Below are positions 35,486 through 48,553 of a DNA stretch of 64,000 bases, piece after piece (the stretch's first letter is position 1; the number at the start of each line of letters is the position of its first letter). The stretch is from a bacterium (lineage in GTDB: Bacteria > Eisenbacteria > RBG-16-71-46 > CAIMUX01). The position numbers were made by a program, and so were the translations under genes. The stretch spans positions 192,554 to 256,553 of the forward strand of contig JAUIHP010000007.1 in NCBI GenBank assembly GCA_030431975.1. The letters are read 5' to 3'. The notes below the pieces were generated by a model. It saw only the letters and a program-made list of their open reading frames with translations. It was not told where the DNA came from and did no database searches.

Positions 35486-36865
35486 TTAGTTTACTCTGTC
35501 GACGGCTTCCGCAAGTTGCTCGCGCTGAACCGGCTTGGAGAGGTACGCGTCCATCCCGGCCTCCAGGCACCGGATCCGGTCCTCCTCGAACGCGCTCGCC
35601 GTGAGGGCAATGATCCGAATGGGGTCTTTACCCTGTCGCTCCCGGATCCGACGGGTCGTCTCATAGCCGTCCATGACCGGCATGGAACAGTCCATGAGAA
35701 TGATGTCGGGATGATTCCTTTCGGTCAGTTCCACCGCTTCCTGACCGTTCTTGGCTTCGAGAACCCGAAAGCCGAGGCTGTGCATCAGCTTCTTGGCAAC
35801 GAATCGGTTGACCGGATGGTCGTCGACGACCAATGCGAGCTTGGCGGCGTCTGTGCCTTCATGGTCATGGCGCGCCAACGGAGTCCTGCGTTCACAGGCC
35901 GCCGTACTTTCCGGCTCGGCATGCAGTGGAATACAAAAGGTGAACCGACTTCCTTCGCCGGGCTTGCTCGTCAGCTCGATCTCACCACCCAAGGCCCGAA
36001 CGAGACGACGGCTAATGGCCAGGCCGAGACCCGTTCCTCCAAACCTGCGCGTGGTCGTCGAGTCCTCCTGTGTGAACTCATCGAAGATATCGACCTGGGC
36101 TTCTTTCTTGATGCCGATCCCGGTATCGGAGACGGAGAACCGATATCCACCGTCCTCTGAGGTCAGTCCCAACTCGACGTGCCCCGAAGGCGTGAACCTG
36201 ACGGCGTTGGCGACGAGATTGAAGAGGACTTGGCGAATCTTCGCTTCGTCGCCGACCAGTCGCTGGGGAACCGCGCTCTGAACGTCGATGCGGAGGGCCA
36301 GGTTTTTGGTGGCCGCCTTGGCTCTTACGAGATCGAGAGCGTGGCGAAGTGTCTCCCGAGGTGAGAACGTAATCGGATCCAGTTCCACTTCGCCGGACTC
36401 CAGTCGGGAAAAGTCGAGGACCCGGTTCACAATTGCCAGCAGGGCCTCGGACGAACCCCGCAGAATCTCGAGCAGCTGCTGTTGCTCGGAGTCGAGCTCC
36501 GTGAGTTGCAACAGCTCGACCGCACCGATGACTCCATTCATGGGAGTGCGAATCTCGTGGCTCATGGTGGCCACGAACCGGCCGCGCGCCTCGACCGTTC
36601 TTGCCGCCTTTCGATTCGCTTCCTCCAGCTCCCGAACCGAGTTCTCGAGCTTCTCCTGCGTACGGAACATCACGCGCTTGCTGAGGTTCGACATGGACTC
36701 GGACGTCCCGGCCGTTCTCTTCCACTGCGTCACTTCGCGTTGGGCGCGCGCCAGCTTCTTTTGGAGGCGGCGCACCTCCTTCTCGAGTTCGCAAAGCTGT
36801 TCGTTCGTGCGGCTGTTCACGTGGCTATCACCTGGTCCTGGGTTTGGCTCCTCAGTTTCATGCAT
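35486..36865 (-). CDS. Cytoplasmic hybrid histidine kinase with receiver domain
   Basis: 459 residues. An N-terminal coiled coil (~20-95) replaces a membrane sensor; the dimerisation/phospho-acceptor box is MSHEIRTPMNG (His103); the ATPase domain has the N box FNLVANAVRF, G1 DTGIGI (247-252) and G2 GGTGLGL (276-282); the C-terminal receiver has VVDDHPVNR, phospho-Asp392 (LMDCSMPVMDG) and the conserved Lys in YLSKP. With no sensor of its own, it most likely takes input from the FIST protein encoded just upstream, whose stop it overlaps by 8 bp. No output DNA-binding regulator is next to it. Confidence 0.95.
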   Translation of the reverse strand: MHETEEPNPGPGDSHVNSRTNEQLCELEKEVRRLQKKLARAQREVTQWKRTAGTSESMSNLSKRVMFRTQEKLENSVRELEEANRKAARTVEARGRFVATMSHEIRTPMNGVIGAVELLQLTELDSEQQQLLEILRGSSEALLAIVNRVLDFSRLESGEVELDPITFSPRETLRHALDLVRAKAATKNLALRIDVQSAVPQRLVGDEAKIRQVLFNLVANAVRFTPSGHVELGLTSEDGGYRFSVSDTGIGIKKEAQVDIFDEFTQEDSTTTRRFGGTGLGLAISRRLVRALGGEIELTSKPGEGSRFTFCIPLHAEPESTAACERRTPLARHDHEGTDAAKLALVVDDHPVNRFVAKKLMHSLGFRVLEAKNGQEAVELTERNHPDIILMDCSMPVMDGYETTRRIRERQGKDPIRIIALTASAFEEDRIRCLEAGMDAYLSKPVQREQLAEAVDRVN

Positions 36866-38078
36866 TGGTTCGCGGTCCCAACAGCACCGTCAGACAGGTA
36901 TCGTTGTGAAGTTTGGATGGTTGTCCCGAAGCGAGGGGCGCCACTTCACCGTAGACGTAGAGCCCGGCGATGCTCGTGCCTTCGTGTCCTCGTGCCGAGA
37001 GAAACTCACGAAGAACACGGATCTCCTGTTCGGCTCTCGATCCCAGAACCCACTTGCGGGCGGCGCAGCTGAAGACCAGGCCGATCTCGGGGCGGGTTCC
37101 TGGGAACCTTTCCAATGCCTCCCCGACGGACGTTTTCGTTCCCGAGAGAATTCCTTCGTCCAGGACCTGAGTCATTCGAACCCAGCTTCCTTCCGGGATC
37201 TCGCCGACGAAACGGACCTCGCCACTGTCGCGGTCCGTTCCCAGAACCGCGCGCAGGACATAGGTTCCGTCCGGATCGTCGTCATACAAAGCGAGTGGAT
37301 ATTCACCCAGAGTGCCTTGCGGGACCTGGCCGTAGTTCTGCTCATAGATGTCGATGGCCGGCTTGCCGTCGATCTCCATGACGATGTGGCCGGCGGACCG
37401 GGTGACGGGGTAGGCCCGGTCGAGAGGTTTCCACCCGGAGCAAAGGCCCCACCCGGCGGCGACATTGCCGTACAGGCAAAGTATGGGCAGAGAGTCTGAA
37501 AGGACCTCGGTGCCGTGGAATTCGACCATGCGGGCGATCTCCCGGTGGTCACCGGTCAGGCCTCCGAGGATCGGGCAGGGCGGACTTCCGAAGGTTCTGT
37601 TCAGACTTCGTAGGACCTCGCTGGCGTTCGTGCTGGGGGAGAACAAGGTCAACACGACGTCCGGTGATCCATGCGTGTTGGCTGGAATGGCATCCCCCGT
37701 GGTTCCCGGTGTGCGAGACGGGCGAGAGGCCGAGCGGTGCGCTTCGAGGGTCGACGCGTCGATATCCGTGCTCAGATTCCGCCCGAGGCCGGTCGTGGCG
37801 AATACGTTGTCGCCGCAGATCAGGGTTAGTAGGACGGAGTCCATGAGATAGCCGGATTGGGAGGAGATCTCTCCATCGCTGCTTCCTCCGATCAGGGGGA
37901 GTCCGGGCCAGGCATCGGCGATCTTGGCGAGGACGACACGATGGTCGTAGTCGACGGACATGAAAAGCAGGGCGGCTTTCGGTACCCGGTCGCCCAATTG
38001 ACTCCGGCACTGCGCGATGACGTCCGTCGCCGCATCTTGGGAGTCGATGTCGTCGCTGTGGCCGATGACTACGTGCAC
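36858..38078 (-). CDS. FIST N/C sensory domain protein
   Basis: 406 residues. FIST domains are ligand-binding sensory modules thought to bind small molecules such as amino acids. The N-terminal half has PKAALLFMSVDYDH, the G-G-S-S-D-G-E motif (LIGGSSDGEIS) and LGGLTGDH; the C-terminal half has YGQVPQGTLGEYPLAL, GEIPEGSWVRMT, and GLVFSCAARKWVLGSRAEQEI with the conserved Cys, ending AGLYVYGEVAPL with the conserved G-E. There is no signal peptide or membrane segment, so the sensor is cytoplasmic. It is the first gene of the kinase operon, overlapping it by 8 bp. Confidence 0.92.
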   Translation of the reverse strand: MHVVIGHSDDIDSQDAATDVIAQCRSQLGDRVPKAALLFMSVDYDHRVVLAKIADAWPGLPLIGGSSDGEISSQSGYLMDSVLLTLICGDNVFATTGLGRNLSTDIDASTLEAHRSASRPSRTPGTTGDAIPANTHGSPDVVLTLFSPSTNASEVLRSLNRTFGSPPCPILGGLTGDHREIARMVEFHGTEVLSDSLPILCLYGNVAAGWGLCSGWKPLDRAYPVTRSAGHIVMEIDGKPAIDIYEQNYGQVPQGTLGEYPLALYDDDPDGTYVLRAVLGTDRDSGEVRFVGEIPEGSWVRMTQVLDEGILSGTKTSVGEALERFPGTRPEIGLVFSCAARKWVLGSRAEQEIRVLREFLSARGHEGTSIAGLYVYGEVAPLASGQPSKLHNDTCLTVLLGPRTNA

Positions 38079-38265: not shown

Positions 38266-38553
38266 ATGCAGGAGCTGATCGTGAGCTGGTGTGCCCCGGA
38301 CGGATCGACGGCCGCAGCCCGCCAACAACTGGAAGACATCGTCAGAGCAGTCCTGGATGAATTCAAAGAGCAAGACTGGTTAGAAGGCGAGAAAGTGCGG
38401 TCTCACTCCATGTTCTTCGGTTCGATCGACCCGGATTTTCTCGAGGCGTTGAACAGCCAGCTGCATGCCCGGCTGGGTGGTGTGCCCGGTCGGTGTCTCG
38501 TCGTTCAGTTGGACATCGACGCGCAGTTCTCAGAGGTGAGGGTGCTCGGATGA
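38266..38553 (+). CDS. Small protein coupled to an outer-membrane protein
   Basis: 95 residues, cytoplasmic, alternating helix and strand (IVSWCAPDG, LEDIVRAVLDEFKEQDW, RCLVVQLDIDAQFSEVRVLG). The ATG is preceded by GGAGGG. Not recognised as a known family; the C-terminus hints at a small alpha/beta fold such as a ferredoxin-like or YajQ-type unit, without proof. Its stop overlaps the start of the OMPLA-like gene (ATGA), so it is likely co-translated with it. Confidence 0.6.
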   Translation: MQELIVSWCAPDGSTAAARQQLEDIVRAVLDEFKEQDWLEGEKVRSHSMFFGSIDPDFLEALNSQLHARLGGVPGRCLVVQLDIDAQFSEVRVLG

Positions 38554-39689
38554 AAGAGATGACGGCCGAACAAAAGATCGTACGAGGACATCTTCTCTCC
38601 TGGTGGCCTCTCTTCTTCCTGACCACGAGTTTCTTCGCTTTCGCTGCGCCGGCACACGCGCAGAGAGACTTTGTCCGCAGTCAGCCAAGTCCGTGGATGG
38701 AGCGTTCGAAAGTCTACACGGGAGGCGGGAAACTCGACGGGCCGCTCGTGTTTGCAGCGGACATATCCCCCACTCTCTACTTTTGGAATCGGCTCGAGAC
38801 CGTGGACTTGACGAAGGGACGCCGACGCTTCTTCACGGCCTCCGGTACGCCGAGAGTCCGTCTTCGGATGTACGATGAGGACTCCGAGCCGGTCCGGACT
38901 CCGTCATACATGCCGACCCTGGACTTCCGCTGGCACTGGGCCATCCCCCGAATCACGGAGGAGACGATCCCATCTGGTGGCACCGTCCGGAGGTTGTCGG
39001 GGGTGACTTGGCTGATGGGCGGTTTGCGACTGAGACACCATTCGAACGGCCAGGACGGGTGTCGATTCCGCGCCGACCTGGAAGCCACGGACGAGGATTG
39101 CCCCGTCGGTGGCGCGCTGGATGAGGGTCTTTCGCAGGAAGATCTCAACCGGGATTCCGGCGACTTCTCAACAACGTATGTCGCAATCGCGGCGGGGTTA
39201 AGGCGAACCGGAATCGATGACAAGCTGCCGGGTAGCTCCTGGGAGGGGCTCGTCGAACTGCAGTGGCACCCGAAGGACTCCTTCCTGCCGGGCTCAATCG
39301 ACCGCCACCTGGCCCGTTTCTACTCGAACACCCGACTGCGGACCGCATTCTCCTACTCGAAGCGGATCCATCGTGCGAGATGGCTACCCAACGGTTTCGC
39401 CGAAGCTGCCTTGGAAACCGAACATTCTCTGACCTCCGTTGGAGATGCGATGCGCGAACTTGCAGGAGACGGTGACTTCGCTCTCCACGGCTTCGAATGG
39501 GTTCTGTCCTACCGGCTTGCCGGGGTAGGGGGCTGGGGGCCCTTCGTTGGAGGGCAGCATGGGCAGGACTTTTACAATCTAGCCGCGATCGATGAACCAA
39601 TCCATGTACTGATGTTCGGTCTGGTTTTCGGTGCGGACAAGTCGTCTTCCTATGAGTTCGCTCCGAGCGGCAAGTCCCCGTTCCCTTGA
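38550..39689 (+). CDS. OMPLA-like outer-membrane protein
   Basis: 379 residues from the ATG at 38550 (ATGA overlap with the previous stop). A signal peptide (LFFLTTSFFAFAAPAHA) is followed by alternating-hydrophobicity strands fitting a beta-barrel. The segment LRLRHHSNGQDG has His163-His164-Ser165-Asn166-Gly167; H-x-S-N-G/H-S-N-G is the catalytic signature of outer-membrane phospholipase A and related lipid-modifying barrels. If active, it would hydrolyse phospholipids or lipid A acyl chains in the outer membrane. Overall similarity to pldA is limited, so the call rests on the motif and topology. Confidence 0.5.
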   Translation: MKEMTAEQKIVRGHLLSWWPLFFLTTSFFAFAAPAHAQRDFVRSQPSPWMERSKVYTGGGKLDGPLVFAADISPTLYFWNRLETVDLTKGRRRFFTASGTPRVRLRMYDEDSEPVRTPSYMPTLDFRWHWAIPRITEETIPSGGTVRRLSGVTWLMGGLRLRHHSNGQDGCRFRADLEATDEDCPVGGALDEGLSQEDLNRDSGDFSTTYVAIAAGLRRTGIDDKLPGSSWEGLVELQWHPKDSFLPGSIDRHLARFYSNTRLRTAFSYSKRIHRARWLPNGFAEAALETEHSLTSVGDAMRELAGDGDFALHGFEWVLSYRLAGVGGWGPFVGGQHGQDFYNLAAIDEPIHVLMFGLVFGADKSSSYEFAPSGKSPFP

Positions 39690-39698
39690 GAAGAAGGT

Positions 39699-41537
39699 TC
39701 AGATTTCCAGCTTCTCGATATCGTCCTCGTAGTGAACCCGGTAGACGTCTGTTCGCCGGTCATCCCAGTTTCGAGTGGCCCCGCCGGCCTTGTGCTTCGG
39801 CAGAAGGCCGAAGTCGAGGTCGTGGAAGATCACCGTCTCGATGTTGGGGCTGCACTCTGCGGCGATCGCATCCCGGCTGAAAGAGAAGTCGGACGGTGTG
39901 TAGATCCCGGACTGGGCGTAGTGGATGTCCGCGTTGTCGACGAACGGCAGATTGCCGACGCATCCTGCGATTGCCGTGTAGACGTGATTCTCGATACACC
40001 GTGCCTGCGCGCAGTGCCGGACCCGAAGGTAGCCGTGGCGTTCGTCCGTATTGAACGGAACGAAGATCATTCGTGCCCCCTTGGCGGCCGCGACCCGGGA
40101 GAGCTCGGGGAATTCCACGTCGTAGCAGATCTGGATGGCGATCTTGCCGCGATCGGTGTCGAAGACTTCCATCCGATCGCCGGGCTCGACCCCCCACCAC
40201 CGGCGTTCCGACGGAGTGACGTGCAGTTTGTACTGCTTGGCCACGGTCCCGTCGCGACGGAAGAGGAACGCCACGTTGTAGAGCTTGTCTTCCTCCATGA
40301 CGAACTGCGAGCCACCGATGATGTTGATGTTGTACCGGACGGAGAGTCCCCCGAAGAGTTCGAGGAACTGCGGCGTGTATTCGGCGAGCCGGCGGGCCGA
40401 TTCCGCCGGATCTCTCGCATCGATGATCCCGAGCAGTTGCGTCGTGATCAGCTCCGGGAACAACACGAAATCGCTTCGGTAGTCGGATGCGGTGTCGACG
40501 AAGTACTCGCACTGGGTGGCGAAGTCTTCGAAGCTCGATACTCTTCGCATTTCGTACTGGACGACGCAGATGCGAGCGTTCTGTGAGCCGATCGAGGTCT
40601 CCGGCGCGTGGTCGAGGTTGACCCACTCGAGGATCGTGGCGTAGCCGAGGGACTCCCGGTCCGACGGAAGATAGTCTGGGACCAACTGCCGAAGCGCGAA
40701 CCCGTTGGAGATCTGTGGGGTCAGGACGGGATCGAGAATCGTCTTGTCGATGACCTTCTCCACGTACTCGCGGGCGGACAGTTCGTCAGAGTACCGCGAG
40801 TATCCGGGGATCCGGCCTCCGATCATCATCCTCTCGAGGTTGTGATCGCGAGCCAGTCTCTTCCGCTCGTCGTAGAGGCGGCGTGCAAGCTTCATCCCCC
40901 TGTACTCGGGGTGGACCATGATCTCGATTCCGTAGAGCGTGTCGCCGGCAGGATCGTGGTTGCGAATGAACCCGTCGTCGGCGATCTCTTTCCAGTCGTG
41001 CCAGGCCGAGTACTCGGCGAAGGCAACGATCACGCTGGAAGCCGAGGCCACCACGACGCCCTCGTACTCGACGCAGACTTGGCCTTCGGGGAAGATCTCC
41101 AACTGGCTGAGGTACTGGGCTCGCTTCCACGATTGCATTCCGGGGAAGCAGAGTCTTTGCAGTTCCACCATGGCCTCGAAGTCGGAAGGCAGGAGCGGAC
41201 GAGTGCGGATCTGTCGGGAGAAGTCGGAAAGGTCAAGCTCCGAGACGTCCGGTAGAGCATGAACGGGTCGGCCGACGCTCTCGTTCGCGGTCGTACTGGC
41301 CTCGGCATTCTTCTTCACGACCTTCTTCCTAGCCACTTGCTTCTTGCCCACATTCTTCTTTACGACCTTCTTCCGGGCCGTTCCTTGTTGAGATGTGCTT
41401 TTCTTGGCCGTCTTTTTCTTCGCTGCTTTTTTCTTGGTCGCTTTCCTGGAGGTCGCTTTCTTCGTGGTCGGCTTCTTTGAAGTTGCCTTCTTCGAGGTCG
41501 AACTCTTCGTCGCTCTCTTCGTCGTCTTCTTTGCCAT
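39699..41537 (-). CDS. GNAT acetyltransferase - nitrilase fusion with histone H1-like N-terminal tail
   Basis: 612 residues. Residues 1-77 are a Lys/Ala/Thr-rich tail ([26 protein letters not shown]) like a bacterial histone H1 tail. Residues ~113-320 are a GNAT domain ([21 protein letters not shown], acetyl-CoA loop R-G-M-K-L). Residues ~330-600 are a carbon-nitrogen hydrolase with Glu (FPELITTQ), Lys ([10 protein letters not shown]) and Cys ([11 protein letters not shown]) as the E-K-C triad. The GNAT-nitrilase fusion itself is a known architecture. It is the last gene of a five-gene unit, 69 bp after the N-formylglutamate amidohydrolase, and may cap or trim the product of that unit. The ATG at 41537 is chosen because it opens MAKKTT. 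Confidence 0.9.
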
Positions 41538-41605
41538 GCTCTCGCTCTGCCTCTTCGTACGTGACGGGTTCGAACGGATGAGAAGAAGGTCTCTGACCGC
41601 CGGAC

Positions 41606-42352
41606 TCAACCCCGATTGTTTGCTGCGTCGGCCAGAACGATCCTCAACGTTCGAGCCAAAGTCTTCCTTAGTTCCGATTCAGAGTCCGGGCGAGCCAAGA
41701 CTGCCTGATTACATTCGATTTCGATACCGATGTATCCGGTACCGAGCTTCCGACGGAAGGCCGTGGTCATTCCGTCGCTCCAACCGCGGTAGGGTTGGTT
41801 CAGCCGAACTTCGAGATGCGGCGCCACCGTGGCGATTTCCCGCTTCCAGGAGACGGCAAAGTTGCGCTCGGCCTCGCTGCGTGGATCGTAGAGGATCCCG
41901 AGCGGGTAGTGCCGATCGGATCGGTTCCGCCCAGAAATTCGTCCGGGCGTCGCGGTGAAGCTGTGGGACCCAAGATGCAGGACTCTCCGACCGGGAGCGT
42001 TGGCCTTTGCCTTCCGCAGTGCGTCTTCGACCGCCGACCAGTGTGGTGTGTGGTACTCCTTCAGAATCTCCTGACGCTCTGCCGCGGGCAGTGACTTCGT
42101 GAACTCAGAGAAGAGCCCGGCGCGGTCCTCGGTTCGATTGAGATCGACCAGCAGCCGGGTAACTTCGGATCCGAGAAAAGGCGCTTCAAGCACCCGAGCC
42201 AGGTAGCGGCCGATCTTCTGAGCTCCCGGATCCCAACCGCGATGACTCGCCAGCGTCTGCTCGGCGCCGCGAAAGAGGGAACGGTAGCGACGCGGGACGC
42301 GGTTGCCGCCGTGCTCGCATGTGACGAGGATCCCGGCACGGTTCGTTTTCAT
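41606..42352 (-). CDS. N-formylglutamate amidohydrolase family protein
   Basis: 248 residues. The opening [14 protein letters not shown] is the family's metal-binding E-H-G/A-N motif; further on are [17 protein letters not shown] and [11 protein letters not shown], with HxGxHSF and the late IEIE-N typical. Known members cleave N-formyl- or N-acyl-glutamate into glutamate and the acid, with a divalent metal. The ATG at 42352 overlaps the stop of the GCS2 ligase gene (ATGA). Within the unit it could release glutamate or remove a formyl or acyl cap from a glutamyl product. Confidence 0.9.
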
Positions 42353-43677
42353 GAGAACATCCGGTCCTCGTCCAGGCACGCGCAGAGTTCGCGGTAGACT
42401 TCCCGGACAGACTCTTTCGTGAAAGATCCTGCGCCCGAACCCGAACCCGAACCCGAACCCGAACCCGCGCCCGAGCCCGAGCCCGAGCTTGATCCTGCGC
42501 CCGCGTTGTCGTCCTTCAAACGCCGCAGGATCCGGTCGGAGAGGCAGCCCTCACTCAACAGGCGCTGCGCGACGGTGTAAATCGAGCTCGATGCAGCCAA
42601 TGGATCGTTCGGGTCGTGGGTGGTCAGTTCTGAAAGCAGGTGGCTCCAGACCTCCCGCGTCGAGGTCGGTTGTTTCAGACCGAAGGCCGCGAGCCATTCC
42701 GGAGACTCTACGATGCAGTCGTTCGCCGACTGCGTCGCCAGGATGAAGTGCTTTGCCAGCAATTCGGTCGGCAATTCACTGAGCTCCCGCTCCGAGATCC
42801 ACTTCTCGTTGGCCAGGGCTTTCACTGCAGCAGAAACCAGGGCGACGACGGCGAGGTCGGCGCTGGGACATTCCTGAATGTCGAGGACGCGGATCTCGAT
42901 GGCCATGCGGTCGAAACGGGCGATCGCGCCCCGTGCGTTCAGCCACTCGTACTGCAGGATTCGATCCGGATCGTGAGGGGCGATGTCCTTGTAGAGCCGA
43001 CCCAGAAGCTCCGTCTCGTAGGCATTTCGGGTGTAGACCGGCTCGGGAATGACATCGCCGCTGACGGACGGAATCCGTCGCGCATTCCGGCGATAGTAGG
43101 AGAGGCGGTTGTCGGTCGTCCCGGTCGCATTTCCCTCGACGATGGGCGAACTGGCGGCCAGCGCCGGGAGCAGAGGAAGGATTGCCCGAATGGCGGCGTG
43201 CAGCCGTCCGAACTCGTCGTCGTTTGCGAACGGCAGATTGATGTGCGTGCTCTGCAAGTTCGACCAACCGTGACCCGAGCAACCGAAGATGCGATCGAAC
43301 GCCTCGTAGACCGGGCTGTACTCGTGCGGCCAGAGTTGGGTTTCGCGAAGCGGATCCATCCATGGGTGCATGGCCGTGGGCATGAGACGTGCTCCCATTC
43401 GGGAAGCGATGCGATTCGCCTCACGGACTCGATCGGCGAATGCTTCCGGTAGGGGAGAGAGATCGGGAGCGGGCCCGTTGGTCTTGAGCTCGAGGACGTG
43501 GAGAACCAGTTCGTTCGACCACGCGATCTCTCCGTCCTCCAGTTCACTCGTGATCTCGCCGCACTTGCCTTCGAGAATCCGGTCGGAGATCGGCAGGACG
43601 TCGAGGGTCTCGGCGTCGACAATCATGTACTCCAGCTCTACGCCGAAGCCCTGAAACAGATGAAGAGGACTCGTCAC
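42349..43677 (-). CDS. GCS2-family carboxylate-amine ligase (YbdK type)
   Basis: 442 residues. GCS2 enzymes use ATP to join a carboxylate, normally the gamma-carboxyl of glutamate, to an amine. Features: FGVELEYMIVD at the start (the G-x-E-x-E metal/ATP site), ELKTNGP, STHINLPFAND, and late FDRMAIEIRVLDIQECPSADLAV. Near the C-terminus (~396-416) is a Gly-Ser/Gly-Ala tract from a 6-bp repeat, after the catalytic core. The ATG overlaps the stop of the ATP-grasp gene by four bases. Together with the ATP-grasp ligase it gives the unit two distinct amide-forming enzymes. Glutathione or ergothioneine-type synthesis is not indicated by the neighbours. Confidence 0.9.
   Translation of the reverse strand: MTSPLHLFQGFGVELEYMIVDAETLDVLPISDRILEGKCGEITSELEDGEIAWSNELVLHVLELKTNGPAPDLSPLPEAFADRVREANRIASRMGARLMPTAMHPWMDPLRETQLWPHEYSPVYEAFDRIFGCSGHGWSNLQSTHINLPFANDDEFGRLHAAIRAILPLLPALAASSPIVEGNATGTTDNRLSYYRRNARRIPSVSGDVIPEPVYTRNAYETELLGRLYKDIAPHDPDRILQYEWLNARGAIARFDRMAIEIRVLDIQECPSADLAVVALVSAAVKALANEKWISERELSELPTELLAKHFILATQSANDCIVESPEWLAAFGLKQPTSTREVWSHLLSELTTHDPNDPLAASSSIYTVAQRLLSEGCLSDRILRRLKDDNAGAGSSSGSGSGAGSGSGSGSGSGAGSFTKESVREVYRELCACLDEDRMFS
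42431..42490 (-). repeat. In-frame 6-bp repeat (Gly-Ser/Gly-Ala)
   Basis: About ten near-perfect 6-bp units (CCCGAA, CCCGAG and CCCGCG on the plus strand) encode Ser-Gly or Ala-Gly dipeptides near the end of the GCS2 ligase. Confidence 0.85.
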
Positions 43678-45332
43678 GACGAACGCTCCGATCTTTTGCT
43701 CTTGGCAGCCTTTCGGGGCTTGCGGGAGGGACCCGACGAGCGGGCGGCTGTTGCCGACCCACCTGTGGTTGCCGACCCGCTGCTACGGCCGGTCGTTGCG
43801 GTCGTCTTCCTGCCCGCAACCTGGCGCGCTGTAGCCATGGAGCGGCTCGACTCGATTCGGCGAACGAAGTGGTCGATGATGCGGTCGTAGAGCTCATCGC
43901 CCATGACCTGATCCTCGTCGCCCGCTTCGAGGCTGGGGTTGTCATTGACCTCAATGACGAAGGACCGGTTCCCGCGTTGCTTCAAGTCGACACCGTAGAG
44001 TCCGTCTCCCATGAGCCGGGCCGCGCGCAGGGCATTCCTCATCACCGAGTCCGGAACCTGGTCGACGGGGAGTGCCTCCACCTTTCCGAACCTTTGCGCC
44101 GTGCCCTGCCACTGAATGATCTGCCAATGCTTGTGCGCCATGTAGTAGCGGCACGCGTAAAGGGGCTTTCCACCGAGAACACCAATTCTCCAGTCGAATT
44201 CGCTGGGTAGAAACTCCTGCGCGATCAGGAGGTCCGAGTCTTCATGCAGACGGCTCAGCACCTCCGCGAGTTCGGTCTCGTCCCCGACCTTGAAGACGCC
44301 TTGCGAGAACGAACTGTCCGGTTGCTTGACGATGACCGGGAAACCGAGACGTTCTGCGATCTCTCCCGCATTGCCGTCATGGACGACCATCGATCGGGGG
44401 GCCGGGATCTTGTGCCGCAACAGTGCTTCTGCCAGGAAGACCTTGTTCGTGCATCGGACGATCGATCCCGGATCGTCCACGACGACCATCCCGGCGGCTT
44501 CTGCCCGAACGGCGAAGCGATAGGTGTAGTGATCGACCTGAGTCGTCTCCCGAATGAAGAGACCGTCGAACTCCAGAAGTCGGCCTGCGTCGTTGGGCGT
44601 GATCCGTTCGACGCGAACCCGGGCCCGGTTGCCCGCGCGTTCGAACTTTCGGAGCGCCCGTTCGTCCGAAGGCGGATTGTCACTCTTCGGGTCGACGAGG
44701 ATCGCGAGGTCATAGCGATGGATGGCCCGCTTCGTCCGTCCTTCGGAACGGCTGCCCAGATGTTCCTGTACCGCTTTGACGAGGAAGGACCGGTGGGAGT
44801 CCGGGATCTCACTCGTCGGCACGGGGCGGAGCCAATCCATCCGCCACCGTCCGTCCAGCCGCTCGAAACGGGCACGCAGAAGCGGAGCTGGGTGGGCGTT
44901 GTAGAGTGCGAGCGCCAACCGTCCGTACCGTTGGGCGAGGTTCCGACCAAAGTAGATGCTGAGGATGAACTCGTCGCCCACGATCGACTTGAGCGCCGAC
45001 TGGATCAGCTTGTCCAATTCCAGCGACCGCAGCCTCAGGACCGACGGATTGCGTAGCTCCTGCACGGTTTGAATGCTTGGAAGAGGACGATGTCCCCGAG
45101 CCTCGGCCAGAAGGGACACGTAGTACCCCTGGCTTTGGTAGGAGTACGAGCGGCACAGGTTGTAGACCTTGGTCCGGCGCACGTAGCCGAAGTCCGGATC
45201 GGTCAGATACTGTTTGGCCGACACGACCTCGACGCCCGGCAGTTCGATGGGCCAGTTCTTCGGGTTGTTTACGACCAGCAAGGTCGTGCCCGGGGGATGA
45301 GGATGGCTTTGGGACTTCATTCGGAAGTTCAT
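43674..45332 (-). CDS. RimK-like ATP-grasp ligase with N-terminal RimK-associated domain
   Basis: 552 residues. The N-terminal ~200 residues (LLVVNNPKNWPIELPGVEVV, CRSYSYQSQGYYVSLLAEARGHRPLPS) form the domain preceding ATP-grasp in RimK-family proteins of this kind. The ATP-grasp core (~285-500) has GFPVIVKQPDSSFSQGVFKV (ATP-binding loop), LLIAQEFLPSEFDWRIGVLGG and FVIEVNDNPSLEAG (Mg-binding E-x-N). Such enzymes add glutamate or other amino acids to a peptide C-terminus. The last ~45 residues are a Thr/Ser/Gly/Lys-rich tail ending in basic clusters. Overlaps the C39 gene upstream and the GCS2 gene downstream by four bases each. Confidence 0.92.
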   Translation of the reverse strand: MNFRMKSQSHPHPPGTTLLVVNNPKNWPIELPGVEVVSAKQYLTDPDFGYVRRTKVYNLCRSYSYQSQGYYVSLLAEARGHRPLPSIQTVQELRNPSVLRLRSLELDKLIQSALKSIVGDEFILSIYFGRNLAQRYGRLALALYNAHPAPLLRARFERLDGRWRMDWLRPVPTSEIPDSHRSFLVKAVQEHLGSRSEGRTKRAIHRYDLAILVDPKSDNPPSDERALRKFERAGNRARVRVERITPNDAGRLLEFDGLFIRETTQVDHYTYRFAVRAEAAGMVVVDDPGSIVRCTNKVFLAEALLRHKIPAPRSMVVHDGNAGEIAERLGFPVIVKQPDSSFSQGVFKVGDETELAEVLSRLHEDSDLLIAQEFLPSEFDWRIGVLGGKPLYACRYYMAHKHWQIIQWQGTAQRFGKVEALPVDQVPDSVMRNALRAARLMGDGLYGVDLKQRGNRSFVIEVNDNPSLEAGDEDQVMGDELYDRIIDHFVRRIESSRSMATARQVAGRKTTATTGRSSGSATTGGSATAARSSGPSRKPRKAAKSKRSERSS

Positions 45333-46036
45333 TTCTCCGGTTCGAGGACGAGAAGGTTCGCGTCGTAGGTCAGAACACCCAGAAGAATGGCGCCCAGGAC
45401 CCGCTCGATCGAAACCGAGTAGACGTGTCCCGGGGCCATCGGATTGGACTCGAGGGGATCGGCGACCCGAACCTGTCTGCTCTTCGAGTCGTAACCGCAG
45501 AGGACGACGAAGTGGCCGACCGGCTCGCCGCGGACGTCGTCCGGTTCATCATCGGTCGGGCGCTCCCGAGCGCTGCCGTAGAGGAAGGTGGCGGAAAGCC
45601 CGGTCAGGACCGGATGTTTGGCCTCGAGGGCCTTTCGAATCGGCTCCTCCGTCGCCGCGGCAAAGCGCACCTGACCTCCGAGTTCCAGGAACTCCAGGTA
45701 GGCGTCGGTCGCCACTCGCAGTTTCTTCCGCCGTTTCGCTAAGCGTTGTGCCGCCAGCTTGACCGGAATGTCGACGACCGGCTCCGGATCGAACCAGGTC
45801 GGATCAAAGACCTGAATGTTGAGCGTGTGCAGCGTGGCTCGGAATCCCCGGCGAAGTGCGTGGATCCCAAGCTGAACGGCAAGGGTGCCCCCTCCGTCCA
45901 GCATCGGCACCTCGCGCAGGAGAGCTTCCTGCGAAACGGTCTCGCCGAAGTATCGGTAGACGGCATGAAGACACGACGGCCCGCACGTTACGTCGTTGGG
46001 CTGAGGAGTGATTTCGAACTGGAGAGAGATGTCCAC
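45329..46036 (-). CDS. C39-like papain-fold cysteine peptidase
   Basis: 235 residues. The C39-type catalytic pattern is complete: Gln12 (oxyanion), Cys18 (NDVTCGPSCLHAVY), His175 (GHFVVLCGYD) and Asp193 (VADP). In ABC exporters this fold cleaves double-glycine leaders, but here it stands alone without ABC or membrane segments, like those in RimK-associated neighbourhoods. It may trim a precursor peptide or act as a transamidase. It is the first gene of the overlapping run (its stop overlaps the ATP-grasp start) and follows the MFS gene by 103 bp. Confidence 0.9.
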   Translation of the reverse strand: MDISLQFEITPQPNDVTCGPSCLHAVYRYFGETVSQEALLREVPMLDGGGTLAVQLGIHALRRGFRATLHTLNIQVFDPTWFDPEPVVDIPVKLAAQRLAKRRKKLRVATDAYLEFLELGGQVRFAAATEEPIRKALEAKHPVLTGLSATFLYGSARERPTDDEPDDVRGEPVGHFVVLCGYDSKSRQVRVADPLESNPMAPGHVYSVSIERVLGAILLGVLTYDANLLVLEPEK

Positions 46037-46139
46037 CGGACGCTGTTGTCCTCTCGGCGACCAAAGCCGATCGGAATGAAGCTAGAACGAAACAGGCCGT
46101 CTCGGAAAGAGGATTCGTTCGAAAGAGACGACAGCGGGA

Positions 46140-47546
46140 TCAGTTTTCGGTTCGTCCGTCGGGAGCGTTCGAAGGACGGTTTTGCGGATGCAGGGAGTCC
46201 GGGCCGGGGCCGGCCGTATCGTCGGGGCCGTCTGTTTCGGCGGACGGCCAGATAGGACGAAGCATTCCGCCGGCCGTCGGTCGAACGGAGATCGTCCGGA
46301 AGCGCAGGTTCCGAGCCAGCGAGGACACCCGTCCCACGCGTCCCCAGCCCAGCCGCAACAGGAAGACGGCGACGACGAGCCGTGCAGCGGTCGAACCGAC
46401 GAACACCGTATAGAAGCCTTCCCGGGATTGCGGGATCCACGTCAGCGCCAGCGCGCCGATCGACGAGCCCAGCAGGACGGCGACCGTATGGATGAAGTTG
46501 TAGGAACTCAGCAGGCTCGTCCGCTCTTTCTCTTTGATCGTCTCGAAGAGCATGAGGAAGGCGGCGAGGTCGTACGCTGCCCACGCCGTTCCGGAAAGAA
46601 ACTCCAGCCCGAGCATGTAGCCGTAGTGGTCACTGACTGCCCAGAGTCCGGCTACCGGCACGATGGCCGCAGCTCCGTACCGAAGAAGTTGAGCCGAACC
46701 GATTCGGTTGGCGACGCGTCCGAGCCAGGAGAGAGCGATGATCTTGGCCAGAAACGCCGTTCCCACCAGGCCGACGTACCGCGGGTAGTCGAGTTCCAGC
46801 TCTTTCAGAAAGTAGGGAGTGAAGAAGGGACTCCCGATGTTGACGGAAGCCGTCATGGCCGCAAGGAAAAGGAGGAAGCGACCGTCCGTTCCCCGGCGGA
46901 GACGACCGAAGATCTCCTTTATTCCGACGATCTTCTCGTTCGTGGGCGGCTCCGGTTCCGGATGACGGATGAGAAGAAGGGTGGAGGCTGCTCGAGCCAA
47001 GGCCGCGACTCCGAAGAGAAAGACAAAGCCGATCAGCGGCGACTCCAACTTTTCCCACGCATGGAGGACAGCCGCCCCGGAAAACAGTGCTGCTGCAGTG
47101 CCGAGTTGTGTTGCCAGAGAGCGGCGAGCAAAGAAGGCGGCCCGGACCCGTTTCGGAATCAACGTCCCGACCCACGGGTTCCAAGCGGGCCCGGCAGCCA
47201 TGCCGGCCGACCAGTAGAGCGTTGCGACCGCGAAAAGGGCCCACAACGAGCGGGATCCCAACAATCCCAGGACGATCAATGGGACGAAGCTCGCGGCCTG
47301 AACGGCAGCGCAAAGAACCACCCACTTCTTTCGCGAGCCCAACCGACGAACGCCCGCCGGCGTCAGAAGCTGAAGCGCGCCCCCGGCCAGCATCGGCCAG
47401 GTCGTAAGAAGTCCGGTCCCGACGCTTCCCCAACCCAGGGCAATGGCAAACGCTCCCAGGTAGGCTTCGCCTGTCCCCACCATGAGGCTCCAAGCGACAC
47501 CCTCCCGATGGATGAGCTGAAGATTCCCCCGCCTTTCATTGGCCAC
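46140..47546 (-). CDS. Major facilitator superfamily transporter
   Basis: About 468 residues with twelve hydrophobic segments; loop 2-3 has GVRRLGSRKKW, the G-x-x-x-D/R-R-x-G-R-R/K type motif of MFS, and the central cytoplasmic loop carries PEPEPPTNEKIVGIKEIFGRLRRG. A GTG at 47546, preceded by GGGAGC, opens the soluble N-terminus; upstream ATG at 47624 is possible. The C-terminal ~50 residues are a polar, Pro-rich tail. Lying directly upstream of the amidoligase run on the same strand, it may export its product or import a precursor; the 103-bp gap leaves co-transcription open. Confidence 0.85.
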   Translation of the reverse strand: MANERRGNLQLIHREGVAWSLMVGTGEAYLGAFAIALGWGSVGTGLLTTWPMLAGGALQLLTPAGVRRLGSRKKWVVLCAAVQAASFVPLIVLGLLGSRSLWALFAVATLYWSAGMAAGPAWNPWVGTLIPKRVRAAFFARRSLATQLGTAAALFSGAAVLHAWEKLESPLIGFVFLFGVAALARAASTLLLIRHPEPEPPTNEKIVGIKEIFGRLRRGTDGRFLLFLAAMTASVNIGSPFFTPYFLKELELDYPRYVGLVGTAFLAKIIALSWLGRVANRIGSAQLLRYGAAAIVPVAGLWAVSDHYGYMLGLEFLSGTAWAAYDLAAFLMLFETIKEKERTSLLSSYNFIHTVAVLLGSSIGALALTWIPQSREGFYTVFVGSTAARLVVAVFLLRLGWGRVGRVSSLARNLRFRTISVRPTAGGMLRPIWPSAETDGPDDTAGPGPDSLHPQNRPSNAPDGRTEN

Positions 47547-47637: not shown

Positions 47638-47710
47638 GCTCAGTGTCACGAGGGGAAGGTGAATCGCCCCGGGTTTGCCGGAGACTCCAATCTTTGGGAG
47701 GATGGTGTTC

Positions 47711-48553
47711 ATGGGAACTCGAAAAGATAGTCGCCGGAAGTCCGTGAGCGGGCCGTCCGGATGTTGCTGGAGCACAGGATTGAGTACGACTTCCGTCAGC
47801 ATCCTCGTTTGGACTTTGGGATCCCTTGCCGCTGGGGAAGCCTCCGGAGGTGTCAATAGCAATGGAACACTTGTCCTGGCGGACTTGGATCGAATGGGGT
47901 CGTGCAACGAGGATCCCTGCCTGAGAAACGAGGTGTGTTTTGATTTTCCAGAGTCATGCGACGAGGTTAGTGCCCAAATAGAGAAGTCCCGCTTCAGTGT
48001 CTGGGCGGGGGTTTACGCGGCGTTTCCAGCTGATGCCTCACCGGTCCTTTATCGCCTATCGTTCGGCTTGGAGTATGACGAAGCGAACGTCTTCGTGGCG
48101 AACACCGCCGCCTGCGGTTCCTCCACTGACGACCCGAATTGGCCTAGTTCAGGCTCGGGGACTGTCGTCACATTGTCAGAGCCGGAAACGGATCGTTTCA
48201 TACTGACCAGCTGGATCGTTGCGTACGAGTACTACGGAGTCCCGAGTGCCCTTTCGCTGGTTCCGCATCCAGGGCTGGGTGCTACCTTTTACGACGACTC
48301 CGTACCACCGGTCGAAGACTCCATAGTTGCACTTGGCAGTTTCGGTTTCTCAGGCACCGACGGTTACGTCCCTTGCCCGGACGAACTTGGCGCGTGCTGC
48401 TTTCCGACAGAGTGCCTTCTGTCGCAAGACGCTGAGTGCGACGCGGCTGGCGGCAGCTTTCTGGGCGACGGGACTTCATGTGAGCCCGACCCGTGCCAGG
48501 CCACACCTGTAATCGGGTCTTCCTGGGGCGCGCTCAAACGCACCTTCCGGTAG
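47711..48553 (+). CDS. Secreted Cys-rich protein with WG-KR C-terminal tail
   Basis: 280 residues. The ATG at 47711, nine bases after GGGAGG, gives a basic N-region and a hydrophobic segment (LSTTSVSILVWTLGSLAAG) as signal peptide. The body is beta-rich with several Cys pairs (CNEDPCLRNEVC), and near the end a C-C-F-P-x-E-C...C...GG-x-F-x-G-D-G-x-x-C-x-P-D-P-C module as found in surface proteins of uncultivated bacteria. It ends in SWGALKRTFR, matching the end of the lamin-tail protein at 5857-6918. No enzymatic motif. The gene is flanked by related short repeats. Confidence 0.72.
   Translation: MGTRKDSRRKSVSGPSGCCWSTGLSTTSVSILVWTLGSLAAGEASGGVNSNGTLVLADLDRMGSCNEDPCLRNEVCFDFPESCDEVSAQIEKSRFSVWAGVYAAFPADASPVLYRLSFGLEYDEANVFVANTAACGSSTDDPNWPSSGSGTVVTLSEPETDRFILTSWIVAYEYYGVPSALSLVPHPGLGATFYDDSVPPVEDSIVALGSFGFSGTDGYVPCPDELGACCFPTECLLSQDAECDAAGGSFLGDGTSCEPDPCQATPVIGSSWGALKRTFR

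Follow-up and report, generated by a model that had tools for sequence, protein, structure and literature searches.

A conserved four-gene unit of C39 peptidase, RLAN-RimK ATP-grasp ligase, GCS2 ligase and FGase-family amidohydrolase, and its possible role in making and trimming a peptide or amide

A 64,000-nucleotide stretch of an Eisenbacteria contig (JAUIHP010000007.1, positions 192,554 to 256,553; hereafter the window) carries six adjoining genes, encoding an MFS transporter, a C39-type (papain-like) cysteine peptidase, an ATP-grasp ligase with RLAN and RimK domains, a GCS2-type carboxylate-amine ligase, a member of the N-formylglutamate amidohydrolase (FGase) family and a fusion of a GNAT domain with a carbon-nitrogen hydrolase (GNAT-nitrilase). 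Do these genes constitute a dedicated unit of amide-forming and amide-breaking enzymes, as a preliminary description of the sequence had proposed, and what might such a unit make? The analysis supports that interpretation in part. The conserved unit is four genes, in the order C39 > RLAN-RimK ATP-grasp > GCS2 > FGase, and it is found across distant bacteria.

Conservation of the four-gene core

Relatives were sought in 385 genomes, 47 from the window's phylum together with a domain-wide sample; the best few first-look candidates of each genome were scored, and the counts are lower bounds. RLAN was found in 25 of these genomes and the GCS2 subfamily (E <= 1e-20) in 16, all of which fall within the 25 and carry GCS2 at the RLAN locus each time (Fisher p 2.5e-22 for genome co-occurrence, uncorrected for kinship); 9 of the 25 RLAN genomes are without GCS2. 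Within the phylum of genome G582, GCS2 is present in 30 of 157 genomes (31 places), and within that of G727 in 6 of 14. No GCS2 was found at E <= 1e-10 in 398 genomes from the phylum of G059 (the genome to which a gammaproteobacterial contig belongs), in a run made without a positive control, and a Legionella record carries the gene. A plasmid-labelled record of Legionella adelaidensis holds RLAN, GCS2 and FGase in the core order. This 9-kb 'plasmid' (L010, 1-9073) also bears fur, dapF and bamE genes and resembles a chromosomal fragment.

After removal of places counted twice, 51 GCS2-subfamily loci, the window included, were available for comparison. RLAN is adjacent to GCS2 in 49 of them, the exceptions being L147 and L158, the contig of the latter ending inside GCS2. 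C39 lies upstream in 41 of 48 visible loci (L010, L134 and L158 set aside), and, with L050 and L127 left out, 33 of 49 loci have FGase no more than 4 kb downstream. It can be seen that the order C39 > RLAN > GCS2 > FGase is unbroken among same-strand matches within 4 kb at all 51 loci. The preliminary description would have been refuted had the genes never been found together elsewhere; for the core they are found together, across the 51 loci, and its proposal of a dedicated amide-forming and amide-breaking unit is supported. Its extension of the unit to six genes fared less well: the core recurs, but no second case of exactly that six-gene order was found. Some frames are broken: a TAG interrupts the GCS2 gene of G727 (L043), and in L157 both C39 and RLAN are split in two, through decay or assembly error.

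Core enzymes and the fusion of the two ligases

Each core protein falls within its expected family, and the catalytic residues that the preliminary description called intact (Cys18/His175/Asp193 of C39, the ATP-grasp site and the E-x-E of GCS2) are conserved wherever the aligned rows show the position. The window C39 protein (235 amino acids) matches two C39 models and, below the cut-off, a guanylyl-cyclase model only. Of 41 rows, all have its H175 and D193 and 40 have its Q12 and C18, the gap being the frame-broken copy of L157. It stands alone, and is not embedded in an ABC transporter as the C39 domain of bacteriocin-leader peptidases is. The C39 open reading frame (ORF) of L008 has a basic N-terminal stretch.

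The RLAN ligase comprises an RLAN domain (residues ~39-186; PF14401, 154.7 bits against a cut-off of 25), an ATP-grasp region (~207-495; PF08443, 42.4 against 21) and a basic tail (~503-552). Twelve ATP-grasp positions, including K297, K336, D449, E461 and N463, are conserved in every relative row that shows them. A structure model of the protein had a mean pLDDT of 73, and a fold search with its ATP-grasp half (residues 204-502; the fold of the RLAN domain lay outside the comparison) placed LysX, ArgX and RimK closest, with Z scores of 25.3, 24.8 and 24.4, which is a tie; the alignment with LysX (3vpd) extends over 267 residues with a root-mean-square deviation of 2.2. The basic tail of the window protein (43677-43826) is absent from the 24 other alignment rows.

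The GCS2 protein scores 108.4 bits with PF04107 (cut-off 21) and has the E-x-E motif; E14 and E16 are present in 49 of 51 rows, the remaining two being gapped there. R164 is replaced by alanine in the four most divergent loci (L151-L154), and the other changes at checked positions are K65R in L153, R249Q in L157 and H145Q in L147. A GSG-rich insert at residues ~405-430 of the window protein (~42388-42465) was not seen in aligned relatives. A single-sequence structure model of this protein was discarded (mean pLDDT 37). The FGase protein scores 91.4 bits with PF05013 (cut-off 28.9), finds its closest solved structure in 2odf (E 1.7e-39) and has no NCBIfam family match at E <= 0.01. Residues E13, H14, H37, D41, H126, H130, E211 and E213 are kept in 34 of 34 rows, and the exceptions at checked positions are C12A in L130, T133V in L153 and D193N in L147. 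Since L147 is without RLAN and has two otherwise invariant residues changed (GCS2 H145Q and FGase D193N), it looks as if it is decaying. Its GCS2 gene lies near an ORF of 1419 amino acids that appears by eye to be Cas9-like (L147, 6993-15928).

In L151, L152 and L153 the RLAN-ATP-grasp and GCS2 ligases are a single open frame of ~1000 codons; for L152 and L153 a Pfam scan confirms the fusion, with RLAN, RimK and GCS2 all matched in one protein. The fusion in three loci indicates that the two ligases probably act in sequence. Pairwise distances of the four core families are correlated (r 0.34-0.74, permutation p 0.0005-0.0145), a correlation that shared species history could also produce.

RLAN seems to be the basis of two types of operon. 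In the second (L002-L004, L009, L034, L051 and L053-L055) a GNAT or GNAT-C39 ORF replaces GCS2. Like the core, it has an RLAN-type ATP-grasp, here adjoining a GNAT-type ORF with a C39-like part; unlike the core, GCS2 and FGase were not found there. The C39-profile matches in these GNAT ORFs are weak (L055 1.1e-5, L009 2e-4, L003 0.0045, L002 0.0067), and none better than E 0.01 was found in L004, L053 or L054. In a tree of 25 RLAN rows, five of the six rows with a GNAT or GNAT-C39 linkage group together with support (100/99), and L051, in which GNAT appears by eye to be fused to RLAN, is placed beside GCS2-type rows. The GCS2-linked rows form no demonstrated single clade in this tree (three changes), in which 11 of 22 inner branches are open.

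Scans of viral contigs returned six RLAN-type ATP-grasps and no GCS2 relative. Those on IMG/VR contigs include L077 (4977-5909), L079 (4971-5900), L080 (4947-5915) and L081 (4986-6143); L081 retains the RLAN part, and by eye a GNAT-like ORF lies directly upstream in L079 and a terminase-like ORF adjoins in L077.

Layout of the window locus, accessory genes and neighbours

The six-gene block at 39699-47546 is real and is placed as first described: the ORF list and a Pfam scan put all six genes on the minus strand (Table 1), and each passes the curated Pfam cut-offs (MFS_1; Peptidase_C39_2 and C39; RLAN and RimK; GCS2; FGase; CN_hydrolase and GNAT). Of the three exact ATGA overlaps reported among the core genes, all three are 4-nucleotide overlaps when read directly but only two are ATGA, at C39/RLAN (45332-45329) and GCS2/FGase (42352-42349); RLAN/GCS2 (43677-43674) is GTGA, the start codon of GCS2 being GTG. 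The outer spacings are 103 nucleotides from MFS to C39 and 68 from FGase to the likely GNAT-nitrilase ATG (41537), and the block is flanked on each side by opposite-strand ORFs (38493-39689 and 47675-48553). No sigma-70-type promoter was seen around it. Upstream of the MFS gene there is a hairpin followed by T-rich sequence, in a region whose terminator-like matches are at chance level (7 against 7.4 expected).

Table 1. Genes of the six-gene block, in window coordinates.
Gene	Coordinates	Strand	Remarks
MFS transporter	46140..47546	-	GTG start at 47546; PF07690 1.2e-21; accessory
C39-type (papain-like) cysteine peptidase, stand-alone	45329..46036	-	PF13529 8.5e-12, PF03412 1.4e-5
RLAN-RimK-type ATP-grasp ligase	43674..45332	-	PF14401 1.9e-45, PF08443 7.6e-11
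GCS2-type carboxylate-amine ligase	42349..43677	-	GTG start; PF04107 5.8e-31
FGase-family amidohydrolase	41606..42352	-	ATG start at 42352; PF05013 1.2e-25
GNAT - carbon-nitrogen hydrolase (nitrilase) fusion	39699..41537	-	PF00795 2.9e-30, PF00583 4.8e-9; likely ATG 41537; accessory

Relatives of the two outer genes were sought within 4 kb of the core at the 51 loci (blast E <= 1e-15; MFS proteins of other kinds were outside the search), and each was found at one of the 50 other loci. In L136 an MFS gene directly follows GCS2, its product being 30% identical to the window MFS over 400 residues, and in L138 a GNAT-nitrilase gene lies between GCS2 and FGase, inside the operon, encoding a protein 63% identical to the window copy. 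These two loci weaken the view that MFS and GNAT-nitrilase are mere flanking genes, and they count for treating both as accessories, occasional members of the operon. A related MFS gene is located ~6.5 kb downstream of GCS2 in L148.

GNAT-nitrilase (E <= 1e-80) is present in 14 of the 385 genomes, five of which are GCS2 genomes; in the four besides the window's it sits away from the core. The enrichment (5/16 GCS2 genomes against 9/369 others) has a p of 1.0e-4, with genome size and kinship uncontrolled, which becomes 8.9e-4 without the window and 0.007 when one family is also counted once. Among plasmid records, 238 match GNAT-nitrilase, with coverage of 73-82% of the protein in 17 of the 25 listed. 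The window copy has a lysine-rich, histone-like N-terminal tail (~41260-41537).

Non-core families were regarded as recurrent neighbours when present in at least four of the 51 loci, and none occupies one fixed place in more than five of the 51. A family that by eye is receiver- or kinase-like occurs in eight loci, scattered and on both strands, and ABC-type ORFs (by eye) lie near the core in four. Another family is found just upstream of C39, on both strands, in five GC-rich loci; a Pfam scan of ten of its frames identified a MocA-type oxidoreductase in L129 and gave no match for the other nine. An ORF that by eye is glutamine-synthetase-like precedes the core, in the same orientation, in L137, L139, L140 and L143 (genomes G903, G806, G869 and G830); these loci all belong to family f278 and also have frames opposite the ORF, and the arrangement may be plain synteny. 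Elsewhere in the window (35486-38078), two overlapping minus-strand ORFs resemble, by eye, a histidine kinase/response regulator and a FIST-type sensor.

A possible pathway, its rivals and related systems

LysX, ArgX and RimK enzymes link an amino acid with a glutamyl carboxylate, enzymes of the GCS2 family activate glutamate at its gamma-carboxyl, and FGase cleaves N-acyl-glutamate, its relatives acting on N-formylglutamate. These family activities suggest a route of two ligations and two cleavages, and we favour, at about even confidence, a reading in which the core would be a cytosolic, non-ribosomal pathway that assembles free amino acids, glutamate most likely among them, into a short peptide or amide and trims or recycles it. 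The RLAN-ATP-grasp enzyme would activate a carboxylate, probably that of a glutamyl end, and attach an amino acid; the GCS2 enzyme, after or before this step, would activate another carboxylate and attach a second amine. FGase would remove an acyl-linked glutamate-like end, and the C39-type enzyme would act on an internal bond, by cleavage or transfer. The GNAT-nitrilase and/or MFS protein added in a few lineages, including the window's, could cap or edit the product and move it across the membrane. The RLAN-GCS2 fusion makes the two-ligation route physically plausible, and where ligases of these superfamilies are linked, they often carry out ligations one after the other (PMC4431377, in excerpt). 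A GNAT-nitrilase gene inside the operon of L138 and an MFS gene after GCS2 in L136 fit a small diffusible product, and because of such occasional partners we lean towards a free product over a protein tail.

Several observations weigh against this reading. C39 is missing in 7 of the 48 visible loci and FGase in 16 of 49 (L156 has one ~5 kb away), and at L147 no RLAN gene accompanies GCS2 over a span of 7.8 kb. Most loci are without an adjoining window-type transporter or GNAT-nitrilase, and the MFS proteins of the window and L136 share only 30% identity. None of the six window proteins passes the NCBIfam cut-off of a characterised relative, glutamate as the substrate is a choice that we infer from family relatives alone, and peptidases of the C39/papain type usually act on polypeptides, which is a better fit to a protein substrate.

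We tentatively raise the further possibility that the core, widespread among bacteria, is a biochemically uncharacterised pathway in which two fused or coupled ligases would write, and two dedicated hydrolases erase, a gamma-glutamyl-type peptide, whether free or as a protein tag. If this is true, an entire class of peptides or tags made without the ribosome has been overlooked in several phyla. The fusion tells which pair of steps goes together, and with two hydrolases in the set the choice between small molecule and tag can be put to the test. Four genes whose enzymatic logic is clear but for which no product is known lend themselves directly to expression and metabolomics.

The main rival, which we regard as rather doubtful, is reversible protein modification, whereby the two ligases would extend the end of a cellular protein, itself encoded elsewhere, by an amino acid or a short isopeptide tail that C39 and FGase would take off again. 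The RimK/LysX-like ATP-grasp half and the pairing of two hydrolases with two ligases are consistent with this, as are the lack of a nearby precursor and of a transporter at most loci, and RimB is described as cleaving the glutamates that RimK adds (PMC12239564, in excerpt). However, no recurrent target gene lies at a fixed place in the neighbourhood, and the occasional MFS and GNAT-nitrilase partners better suit a small molecule. GCS2 relatives, moreover, use free glutamate. A glutathione-like or gamma-glutamyl redox or metal-binding peptide would be a special case of the favoured reading: GCS2 would make gamma-Glu-X, the ATP-grasp enzyme would add a third residue and the papain-like peptidase would transfer or trim as phytochelatin synthase does. 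Some glutathione pathways work by just such a combination of GCS2 and ATP-grasp, and only G734 of the 16 cassette genomes has a very strong GshB-type match (2.9e-63), 8 of the 16 having none at E <= 0.001. Six more cassette genomes, the window's included, nevertheless exceed the GshB-type cut-off (best per genome 30-67 bits), with matches that may be real or general ATP-grasp relatives in a comparison of cassette genomes without a cassette-free baseline. Phytochelatin synthase models are absent from the matches of the C39 protein, which do include C39 models, and GCS2 falls far below the GshA/YbdK cut-offs; we consider this explanation improbable.

Maturation of a ribosomally synthesised and post-translationally modified peptide (RiPP) of the graspetide type, with the ligases modifying a ribosomal precursor and C39 removing its leader, is more improbable still, to the point of being very unlikely. 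C39 peptidases and ATP-grasp enzymes do co-occur in RiPP loci, but the same excerpted source separates RimK-type enzymes from graspetide ligases (PMC8939145), and the C39 protein has no ABC transporter part. A comparison of 507 ORFs of 18-120 amino acids within 1.5 kb of 17 loci yielded no family and one weak pair (E 0.024), in agreement with the earlier remark that no small precursor gene is present; the search was local, and a distant precursor is possible. Gaps within the core are mostly short in these loci, those above 60 nucleotides being 75 in L044, 191 beside the broken GCS2 gene of L043 and 1243 before FGase in L039. The lack of a conserved short ORF near these loci makes a ribosomal precursor beside the core unlikely, and RiPP maturation was disfavoured on that ground. 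As for a chance neighbourhood of unrelated genes, the usual separation of MFS and GNAT-nitrilase from the core speaks for it, but its probability is close to nil, and for the four-gene core it is refuted by the association over 51 loci, the ligase fusion and genome co-occurrence (p 2.5e-22).

Returning to the favoured pathway, known systems offer parallels to its parts. The NAGGN osmoprotectant system follows a logic of GNAT, ATP-grasp and peptidase for a capped small peptide, using different genes. LysX and ArgX of the LysW carrier pathway (3vpd, 5k2m) are among the closest catalytic halves by sequence and by structure model, and the window ligase scores 85.1 bits with the LysX family TIGR02144 (LysX_arch), below its cut-off of 275.6. 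Unlike that pathway, the core has no recurrent small carrier gene seen nearby, in a survey in which LysW itself was no search target. The window GCS2 resembles YbdK/GshA-type ligases in its family and E-x-E motif, YbdK being a distant homologue (hhalign probability 91.8); it passes none of the YbdK/GshA subfamily models (TIGR02050, PRK), the best reaching 63.6 against 176.4 bits (gshA_cyan_rel), and unlike these ligases the core GCS2 adjoins an RLAN ligase in 49 of 51 loci. In the RimK-RimB system a RimK-type ATP-grasp ligase is, as in the core, genetically paired with a hydrolase that reverses its action, the two writing and erasing glutamates on ribosomal protein S6 (PMC12239564, in excerpt). 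RimK (7qyr) superposes on the modelled ATP-grasp half with a Z of 24.4, while the S6 ligase equivalog NF007764 scores 20.0 bits against a required 331. Unlike RimK-RimB, the core has an extra RLAN domain, GCS2 as a second ligase, and C39 and FGase in place of the retropepsin RimB.

Iyer, Abhiman, Burroughs and Aravind reportedly included peptidases among the amidoligase operons they predicted in 2009, and the RLAN domain is said to have been named in connection with that work, a lead rather than a test; GCS2 we take to be a COOH-NH2 ligase. No paper among the literature matches listed names the four-gene cassette, a comparison outside which Iyer et al. 2009 lies, and PMC7824862 and PMC8939145, as excerpted, do not describe it. 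Operons that link unlike amidoligases, with ATP-grasp and COOH-NH2-ligase genes, are a published kind (PMC4431377, in excerpt, on Iyer et al. 2009). An ATP-grasp gene and an unrelated COOH-NH2-type ligase gene share one operon in 49 of our 51 loci, three of them fused. As judged from sequence, the core thus belongs to this known kind of linked amidoligase operon, and its enzymes are themselves of known kinds.

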